DNA from: Bacteroidota bacterium
GTDB lineage: Bacteria > Bacteroidota > Bacteroidia > Bacteroidales > Paludibacteraceae
Length of the DNA: 64,000 nt
NCBI GenBank assembly: GCA_017860345.1
Contig: JAFNAV010000002.1
Span: 27,253 to 91,252, forward strand
Direction: 5' to 3'
Of the stretch, positions 800-6,071 are shown in pieces (positions within the stretch are counted from its first letter, which is position 1; the number at the start of each line of letters is the position of its first letter). The translations under genes were made by a program, and so were the position numbers. The notes beneath the pieces were generated by a model. That model was not told where the DNA came from. It ran no database searches and was given only the letters and a program-made list of their open reading frames with translations.

Positions 800-876
800 T
801 CTTTAACTATTGTATACCATATTCAGGGTATATAAAATCACATCATAATGGTATTTCACCATTGAAATTCAGTTGC

Positions 877-884
877 TATTTTTG
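877..884 (+). promoter_or_regulatory. putative Bacteroidetes -7 box (TATTTTTG) for the metY leader transcript
   Basis: TAnnTTTG match 25 nt upstream of the leader-peptide ATG; TTTC (near TTTG) 19 nt further upstream. Confidence 0.45.
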
Positions 885-908
885 CAATGTAATCAAACAA
901 AAAGAAAA

Positions 909-965
909 ATGAAATATATAAGTGTAAATATGATAATGTGTTGTTTCATGTGCCGCAAGCAGTGA
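909..965 (+). CDS. putative Met/Cys-rich leader peptide MKYISVNMIMCCFMCRKQ
   Basis: ATG...TGA, 18 codons with 4 Met and 3 Cys (CCFMC), A-rich upstream, followed by a strong intrinsic terminator; too short for the ORF track. Confidence 0.6.
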   Translation: MKYISVNMIMCCFMCRKQ

Positions 966-1005
966 GCCGAACCATTATTGTATTATAAACACTACATAAT
1001 AATAT

Positions 1006-1050
1006 AAAAACAGTTGGTCGGTAATCAAGCAAACGACCAACTGTTTTTTT
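1006..1050 (+). terminator. intrinsic terminator/attenuator in metY leader
   Basis: perfect 10-bp stem cagttggtcg/cgaccaactg followed by TTTTTTT. Confidence 0.85.
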
Positions 1051-1137
1051 TATGGTTCTACACCAAAACCGTTTTTCTGAATTAAATCATACATGTGTTA
1101 TTCGTTTTATCAAAAATCTCTTTCTGAAATTACAGTA

Positions 1138-1163
1138 GTTGCTCCGATGTGAATCGGGGCAAC
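1138..1163 (+). repeat. 11-bp stem-loop capped by GTGA tetraloop in metY 5' region
   Basis: gttgctccgat-gtga-atcggggcaac. Confidence 0.6.
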
Positions 1164-1283
1164 TGCAAAATTCAAAACCCGGTTTTTGTCAATCCATTGA
1201 ATATCGGAGATAAAAAAAGTTGTTTTTTGGAGGATACATGTAAACAGACTAAAAAATTGATATACAAATTATAATTCAATTAA

Positions 1284-2699
<1,416 letters not shown>

Positions 2700-2815: not shown

Positions 2816-2867
2816 AGTTATTTATAGTTTTCTACCGATGCGAATCGTAGGGAAACTATAAATAACT
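2816..2867. terminator. long stem-loop downstream of metY (possible terminator)
   Basis: agttatttatagttt.../...aaactataaataact inverted repeat with CGAT-GCGA-ATCG apex; no clean T-tract. Confidence 0.55.
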
Positions 2868-2945: not shown

Positions 2946-3608
2946 ATGAATAAAAGTTCCTTTATTATTGCTGAAAGTAATATCTTATACAGTTTGGGGC
3001 TAAATGCCCTTATTCATGAGCGCATCCACAATGCTACCGTTATAAACGTTTCGGGCTTCGCCGAAATTAACAATGCTCTGTTATCAACTCCTGAGTCTGT
3101 CGTTATTGTTGATATGGATTCATTCAACAATAAACAGCTTGATTTTTTTTCGATGACTTCGTCAAAATTTACAGGAAGCAATTGGCTATTCATTTCCGAG
3201 ATTGCCCGCGAAGCGCAACTTATTGAACTTAACAGAGCAATTAACCACGCAAATTTTGTGCTTAAAACCAATGATTACGATGTTATATCCACAGCTATAG
3301 TAAATACGGCCAAAGGAATGAGGTATTTTTGTAGCGAAGCTTTACAAATTATCATGGAGGAGCATAACAGAAAAAAAACTACAGAGCCCAAAAAGCATGT
3401 GCTCACAGGCACTGAGCTGGAGCTTATTCAGCTATTTGCTATGGGTAAAACTGCCAAGGAGGTGGCCGTAATCCGCACGTCGAGTTATCACACCATCAAT
3501 ACCCATCGCAAGAATATCTTCCGAAAATTAGAGATTAACAACATTCAGGAACTTATCAAGTACGCTTTAAAGCATAATTTACTTGATTTGACCGAATATT
3601 ACATCTGA
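2946..3608 (+). CDS. LuxR-type response regulator (REC-like + HTH)
   Basis: N-terminal receiver-like fold (VVIVDMD, VLKT), C-terminal LTGTELELIQLFAMGKTAKEVA...HTINTHRKNIFRKL HTH. Confidence 0.85.
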   Translation: MNKSSFIIAESNILYSLGLNALIHERIHNATVINVSGFAEINNALLSTPESVVIVDMDSFNNKQLDFFSMTSSKFTGSNWLFISEIAREAQLIELNRAINHANFVLKTNDYDVISTAIVNTAKGMRYFCSEALQIIMEEHNRKKTTEPKKHVLTGTELELIQLFAMGKTAKEVAVIRTSSYHTINTHRKNIFRKLEINNIQELIKYALKHNLLDLTEYYI

Positions 3609-5417: not shown

Positions 5418-6071
5418 TCAGATATAATATTCAGCCATATCCACTATTCCGGCCCTCATCGCATATTTTGTGGCCTCATGGATATTATTTACTTCTATTT
5501 TCCTGAAAATATTTTTTCTGTGCGTCATAATGGTATGAACGCTTACAAACCGCTTTGCAGCTATTTCCTTGGTAGTTTTACCCAGCGCCATTTCCTTCAG
5601 AATTTCCTGTTCGGTGCCGGTAAGCACCTGTTTGTGCTGATCATTGCTGGTTTTACGACTGCTATCCAGCAAAATATTGCTCACAAAATTACAAATATAC
5701 CGGTTGCCCTTGATGGCTTCCTTTAAGCCTGTAGTAATTTCATCAGCCGAGCAATCTTTCATCAACACACTTACCGAATGAGAATTAAACAACAGGGTTC
5801 TCAAAAACTCATCGCTGAGCTCATCCGAAAACAATATCCAGTCAGTTTTCTCAAAACGACTCTGAATAATGATTAATTCACCGGCACTCTCAAAATCGAA
5901 TAAAGTATAATCAACAATAACAACAGCCTCCTGTTCGTTTTTCAACACATCTATCATCTCAGCTTTACCGCTTACCAACGCAATCTGAAAATTCTCGCTG
6001 ATTTGGCGAAGCAAAAAAGTAAGTCCGCAGCGCGATATGTCCTGATTATCCGCAATAATTATTTTTCTCAT
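5418..6071 (-). CDS. LuxR-type response regulator (REC + HTH), paralogue of 2946-3608
   Basis: receiver (VVIVDYT, VLMKD) plus LTGTEQEILKEMALGKTTKEIA HTH; same TEYYI/AEYYI C-terminus. Confidence 0.85.
   Translation of the reverse strand: MRKIIIADNQDISRCGLTFLLRQISENFQIALVSGKAEMIDVLKNEQEAVVIVDYTLFDFESAGELIIIQSRFEKTDWILFSDELSDEFLRTLLFNSHSVSVLMKDCSADEITTGLKEAIKGNRYICNFVSNILLDSSRKTSNDQHKQVLTGTEQEILKEMALGKTTKEIAAKRFVSVHTIMTHRKNIFRKIEVNNIHEATKYAMRAGIVDMAEYYI

Follow-up and report, generated by a model that had tools for sequence, protein, structure and literature searches.

A probable cysteine- and methionine-responsive leader-peptide attenuator upstream of metY in Bacteroidota

In a 64-kb stretch of Bacteroidota DNA (the window), positions 877-1051 in all likelihood form a ribosome-mediated, trp-type transcription attenuator for metY, and this leader would very probably turn metY on when cysteine and/or methionine is short. 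The case is built from the parts of the leader, their conservation, their alternative folds and the recurrence of similar short upstream ORFs (uORFs) before sulfur genes. An earlier note on this DNA had proposed Met/Cys leader-peptide attenuation upstream of metY, which is now supported by kept codons, by folds that depend on ribosome position and by uORFs before other Bacteroidota metY genes. Leader-peptide attenuation is a known kind of regulation (trp, his, leu), and the metY product acts in homocysteine and methionine synthesis. The mechanism is a known one, while the codon set, the gene and the phylum are new, and the tandem with a SAM riboswitch in relatives is unexpected. Features and homologous leaders are collected in Table 1.

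Table 1. Features of the metY leader region in the window, and leader peptides of the four relatives
Feature	Position	Strand	Basis or remark
Candidate operator TACC-N8-GGTA with a further GGTATT half-site	815-857	+	Pattern scan of genome
-33 element GGTATTTC	850-857	+	3' end of the candidate operator
-7 box TAnnTTTG, Bacteroidetes-type, TATTTTTG	877-884	+	Sequence; box and spacing kept in 4 homologous leaders
Leader peptide uORF MKYISVNMIMCCFMCRKQ, 18 codons	909-965 (ATG 909, TGA 963-965)	+	
Region 2 (GCCGAACCAT)	966-975	+	RNA folding; partner bases 968-974; energy vs shuffles p = 0.037
Intrinsic terminator (regions 3:4)	Stem 1006-1020 / 1034-1048, T tract 1044-1051	+	Sequence, RNA folding
14-bp GNRA-capped hairpin, core CGATGTGAATCG at 1145-1156	1135-1166	+	RNA folding, genome search
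metY, O-acetylhomoserine sulfhydrylase-type PLP enzyme	1296-2699	+	Pfam Cys_Met_Meta_PP 6e-135
Second GNRA-capped hairpin, core CGATGCGAATCG at 2836-2847	2816-2867	+	Between metY and LuxR-type gene; z -8.2
LuxR/GerE-type regulator gene, adjoins metY	2946-3608	+	Pfam GerE 6e-12
Leader peptide of L002 (G024), MRFVKTNMCMCCFMSSRC			MetY 91% identical
Leader peptide of L104 (G498), MKSVLVNMYMCCFMSSLRC			MetY 88% identical
Leader peptide of L003 (G016), MNSLFMYMYMCCCHYHFNDRSRRLCIFVK			MetY 88% identical
Leader peptide of G033, MSSLSMYMRCCHYHFIDRSKCIFIIIKQICM			Before LuxR-type gene, not metY

The -7 box and the short ORF that the earlier note had placed upstream of metY were both read directly as described, and the transcript start predicted from the box lies ~18 nt 5' of the ATG. 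The arrangement GGTATTTC-N19-TAnnTTTG shows no variation across the five homologous leaders. The control codons of the uORF encode Met-Ile-Met-Cys-Cys-Phe-Met-Cys. When both strands of the window were scanned for short ORFs with at least 5 Cys/Met per 6 residues this uORF was the sole case, and the same test on 30 dinucleotide-shuffled windows gave none; its composition is beyond chance.

Promoter, Cys/Met uORF and terminator are kept together in the four relatives of Table 1, in which the genes upstream of the leader differ. The M-x-M-C-C core is present in MRFVKTNMCMCCFMSSRC, MKSVLVNMYMCCFMSSLRC and MNSLFMYMYMCCCHYHF..., and almost so in MSSLSMYMRCCHYHF..., while the flanking residues diverge. 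Codons around the core have changed (one change, TGT/TGC, is synonymous), and the core itself is largely unaltered. Loss of the Met and Cys codons in close relatives had been named beforehand as a result that would count against the proposal; the check found M-x-M-C-C kept. Such a leader is absent from most other metY copies in the genus, and several of the same-genus metY genes that lack it are members of operons; in L004 and L006, for instance, metY follows a cysK-like gene. A separate short ORF ending ...SSSTRMGCCM* was seen next to metY at L003:3276-3338, behind an ATACC/GGTAT-type promoter and upstream of a SusC/TonB-receptor-like gene.

The GC core of the terminator is a perfect 10-bp stem, CAGTTGGTCG (1011-1020) with CGACCAACTG (1034-1043), closed by a 13-nt loop; once A-T pairs are counted the stem (1006-1048) has 15 bp. 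The perfect hairpin noted before thus stands, but its T tract consists of 8 T, not 7. Folding gives -17.2 kcal/mol (z -6.3), and a terminator lies at the same position in all four homologous leaders. A generic terminator scan overlooked the hairpin because its loop exceeds 8 nt.

Each leader was folded in three states: untranslated, with a ribosome on the CC codons, and with a ribosome at the stop codon. In the untranslated RNA, region 2 is bound by uORF bases (1:2), and the fold includes the terminator. A ribosome placed on the CC codons lets region 2 join the 5' arm of the terminator (2:3), giving antiterminators of -14.2 (L001, the window leader), -8.9 (L002), -14.8 (L104), -17.6 (L003) and -14.8 kcal/mol (G033). 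With the ribosome at the stop codon there is no antiterminator (-3.8, 0, -0.1, -1.2 and 0 kcal/mol in the same order). Compared with shuffles of region 2, the antiterminator energies have p values of 0.037, 0.235, 0.001, 0.008 and 0.044, again in that order, and a Fisher combined p of 2e-5 for the five leaders, which is overstated since the leaders are related and not independent. A test that counts pairs to the arm is weakly significant (combined 0.034; p 0.66 for the window leader alone and 0.55 for L002). Five distant leaders with terminators show the same contrast between stall and stop, three before metY (L158, L161 and L173, shuffle p 0.042, 0.005 and 0.027) and two before sulfite reductase (L281 and L283, p 0.252 and 0.320), so that an antiterminator dependent on a stalled ribosome appears in the computed folds of 10 leaders. 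In L161, GTGAGAATG at the end of the uORF and CGTTCTCAC in the terminator arm complement each other, one G-U pair counted.

These folds modify one pairing suggested earlier. GAACCAT (969-975) is indeed complementary to ATGGTTC (1052-1058), yet this is probably not the working alternative, since region 2 (~966-975) is predicted to pair better with the terminator 5' arm (~1012-1022), probably as a trp-type antiterminator.

The start of metY had been put at 1395, and the distance from terminator to gene at ~345 nt. Both were revised. The N-terminal stretch MAGFSIAF... and its ATG are kept in L002, L003, L004 and L104, and GTG replaces ATG at the equivalent of 1395 in L002, L003 and L104, so we take the ATG at 1296 as the actual start; because metY starts there, the gap is ~245 nt. 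The N-terminal extension (1296-1394) is conserved in the clade and apparently missing from many MetY copies.

From these parts we infer how the uORF is translated, where the ribosome stalls, what it senses and how metY is regulated in the cell, as follows. RNA polymerase would start ~7 nt past the TAnnTTTG box, and a ribosome would translate the 18-codon leader peptide. With Cys-tRNA (perhaps also Met-tRNA) charged, the ribosome would reach the stop codon at 963-965 and cover region 2, allowing the terminator (1006-1051) to form and transcription to end. With Cys or Met scarce it would stall in the M-I-M-C-C-F-M-C stretch, which would free region 2 from region 1; region 2 would then pair with the terminator 5' arm and polymerase would continue into metY, whose predicted product would fix sulfide into homocysteine. 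A signal of Cys plus Met seems more likely than either alone.

Other Bacteroidota, in which the earlier note had suggested looking for them, also carry Cys/Met-rich uORFs upstream of metY. Sixty whole genomes and a scan across GTDB yielded 126 distinct metY leaders. A short ORF with 4 or more Cys per 6 residues is present in 20 of them, against 0.0 in shuffles and 0 on the reverse strand, and 26 carry one with 5 or more Cys/Met per 6 (shuffles 0.0). The same test also puts Ala (12 vs 0.3) and Leu (14 vs 8.1) above the shuffled level, with Cys showing the largest excess. uORFs with a Cys run were seen upstream of metY in Pontibacter, Rufibacter, Hymenobacter, Thermonema, Cyclobacteriaceae, Chitinophagales, Flavobacteriales and Kapabacteria/Ignavibacteria MAGs. 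The Cys run of the window uORF is CC only, while those of distant Bacteroidota relatives reach from CCCC to CCCCCCC. Among 35 collected leader peptides, 17 have M-x-M-(x)-C-C, where shuffling of the residues before the Cys run would give 3.9 (P <1/5000). We count this order in favour of the attenuator, though the number is indicative only, because the peptides were selected as Cys-rich and several are related. Across the phylum, the data favour Cys as the first amino acid that would be sensed, together with Met.

Pattern searches reached further genes. In 118 Bacteroidia genomes, ATG followed by four TGY codons was listed at 55 places, while the backward control gave 8 matches; the majority of inspected matches lie inside or opposite long ORFs. 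Those intergenic cases that have a gene behind them stand upstream of metY (L257, L279), sulfite reductase (L281, L283) and homoserine dehydrogenase (L276), and also of PhyH (L266, L267) and, in one case, a response-regulator-like ORF (L265). A PAPS reductase gene has both a Cys-run uORF and a SAM riboswitch (L242). A scan for five TGY codons followed by TRR, a pattern in which TRR admits TGG so that many matches are TG-repeat readings, added one further metY case (L315) and repeated one PhyH case. The leader before the PhyH-family dioxygenase in L266 and L267, two genomes of one genus, is poly-Cys (..MMRMCCCCCCC*), suggesting a sulfur-related role for that enzyme. We also tried the exact MCCFM DNA pattern as a leader marker across the order and rejected it: it is enriched over the backward control, yet in the 30 loci inspected nearly all matches fall within long ORFs or antisense to them, and none precedes a recognised sulfur gene.

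The window leader had been described as free of a SAM riboswitch signature, and an Rfam scan of the window (no match of any kind) and a search of its whole genome for RF00162 (no match) confirm this. Among 36 related loci scanned, 18 have RF00162 above gathering score upstream of metY, and in the leaders that were read the Cys/Met uORF starts directly behind the riboswitch. SAM-I (RF00162) and a Cys/Met-run uORF occur together within ~450 nt upstream of metY in L138, L147, L157, L154, L166, L172, L176, L177, L180 and others. Such a tandem is apparently a two-input leader. Most of the distant SAM-associated leaders show no obvious intrinsic terminator after the uORF and must therefore work by another output, which may be translational or Rho-dependent. 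The Cys uORF was also considered as a constant companion of the riboswitch and this was ruled out, many SAM loci in the phylum being without one; the pairing is common, not obligatory.

The strongest competing explanation makes 877-1051 an independent short RNA ending at 1051 (an sRNA, or a message for a small Cys/Met peptide that binds metals or thiols), with metY under its own signals. It would suit the ~245 nt that separate terminator and metY, as well as the case of G033, where the complete leader precedes not metY but a LuxR-type gene that has its own TAnnTTTG-like box. We nevertheless consider it unlikely, as the peptide is unconserved in length and sequence outside its Cys/Met core, Cys-run uORFs repeatedly adjoin sulfur genes across the phylum, often right after a SAM riboswitch, and the computed switch between terminator and antiterminator depends on ribosome position. 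The uORF might otherwise act by nascent-chain arrest, with M-x-M-C-C as a stall sequence that senses a small molecule and not tRNA charging. The excess of M-x-M before C-C over its expectation from composition would suit this as well. The Cys-run length and the distance to the stop vary widely among leader peptides (0-20 residues), however, which suits codon sensing better than precise contact with the exit tunnel; we know of no arrest peptide similar to M-x-M-C-C, and give this explanation a small chance. Finally, a chance Cys/Met-rich ORF in an AT-rich spacer, followed by a hairpin that by position could be the ordinary terminator of the upstream carbonic-anhydrase-like gene, is scarcely credible in view of the shuffle tests, the conservation in four relatives with differing upstream genes and the parallel occurrence across the phylum. 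Attenuation of metY by the leader peptide is the reading we keep.

Beyond the terminator lies a second RNA structure. The sequence CGATGYGAATCG has exactly two copies in the genome, at 1145 and 2836, both flanking metY. When a covariance model of the hairpin was run on 45 genus genomes, 5 of them gave strong matches, 8 in total, which belong to this leader family without exception, all lie in sense and often come in pairs; the hairpin is also present at the homologous leaders of four relatives. Its core is constant except for Y, while the outer stems vary with some compensatory change. The covariation score is 0.264 vs 0.149 (0/500 shuffles), with 6 double-change cells that come from 2 pairs only. 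A dispersed genomic repeat was ruled out, there being two exact copies and strong genus matches confined to this leader family, and a known Rfam element was likewise set aside, as a search against Rfam gave nothing at gathering score. The hairpin is specific to this clade and probably an RNA element.

The genes around metY were also inspected. Relatives of the adjoining LuxR-type regulator lie behind metY in L002 and behind the orphan leader copy in G033, and a second, related LuxR/GerE-type regulator is found near metY at 5418-6071 (-). The pattern TACC-N8-GGTA with GGTATT has 3 sites in the 3.27-Mb genome (backward control 0): 59-100, before the carbonic-anhydrase-like gene; 815-855, before metY; and G000:C55:13928-13968, before a DUF4395 gene. 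As a proposal, we suggest that the neighbouring LuxR-type regulator binds these candidate sites. The gene at 218-799, upstream of metY, is beta-carbonic-anhydrase-like; the closest PDB sequences to its product are carbonic anhydrases, but also COS hydrolase and CS2 hydrolase, and a sulfur role is possible.

The trp, his and leu attenuators share a leader ORF rich in control codons, 1:2 and 2:3 alternatives, a 3:4 intrinsic terminator and a biosynthetic gene downstream. The window has a promoter-proximal uORF with control codons, an intrinsic terminator before the structural gene, a computed stall-dependent antiterminator (p 0.037 by energy, not significant by pair count) and metY downstream; it differs in its Cys and Met codons, its gene and its Bacteroidota promoter, and its mechanism is predicted. 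Cys codons are found in leaders of Actinobacteria cys operons, and in the mycobacterial ones no terminator hairpin was found to be conserved (PMC1262725); the leaderless polycysteine sORFs of mycobacteria are reported to respond to Cys (Canestrari 2020 as cited in PMC9094748). As far as these sources describe them, such leaders resemble the window type in that Cys codons, as runs there and as CC in the window, lie towards the end of a small ORF ahead of sulfur genes. The window type has an intrinsic terminator, a predicted 5' UTR and Met codons as M-x-M-C-C, and belongs to another phylum. The uORFC-8-2 motif of Rhodobacterales, a tandem-Cys uORF with a terminator before cysS, was proposed to act by ribosome-mediated attenuation (PMC8632094). 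Judged by its description, it is set apart from the window leader: it has a two-stem consensus with the uORF upstream of cysS, a tRNA synthetase gene, in Alphaproteobacteria, and Met codons are not described, while the gene here is metY. The SAM riboswitch RF00162 (S box) controls the same genes and stands directly 5' of the Cys/Met uORF in many relatives, and is absent from the window genome. Within the phylum, leader-peptide attenuation was proposed for amino-acid operons of Flavobacterium psychrophilum (PMC9723704), which shares the general mechanism, though the main text of that paper names neither a Cys/Met leader nor metY, and leader attenuation was suggested in B. thetaiotaomicron (PMC7366714). 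Our search of the open literature turned up neither a Cys/Met leader for metY in Bacteroidota nor a paper on a SAM riboswitch combined with a leader peptide in that phylum.

Taken together, the data allow a wider reading that we hold tentatively and with some doubt, consisting of a general sulfur-amino-acid leader code, riboswitch stacking and replacement by the GNRA hairpin. Bacteroidota and Kapabacteria-type lineages may use M-x-M-C-C, often with long Cys runs, before metY, sulfite reductase, PAPS reductase, homoserine dehydrogenase and other genes. This code may in many lineages be stacked directly on a SAM-I riboswitch, one leader integrating SAM and charged tRNA-Cys/Met. In the window clade, without the riboswitch, the GNRA-capped hairpin CGAUGYGAAUCG, often in two copies, may take the second regulatory role.

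Sulfur amino-acid control in Bacteroidota is little described, and a probable attenuator that recurs in several genera, some of which can be grown in culture (Pontibacter, Rufibacter, Thermonema), offers a testable mechanism; many small ORFs upstream of sulfur genes are thereby flagged as probably regulatory. The order M-x-M-C-C raises the question whether one peptide reads the supply of both Met and Cys, and the tandem of SAM riboswitch and Cys/Met leader would be a natural two-input RNA logic device.
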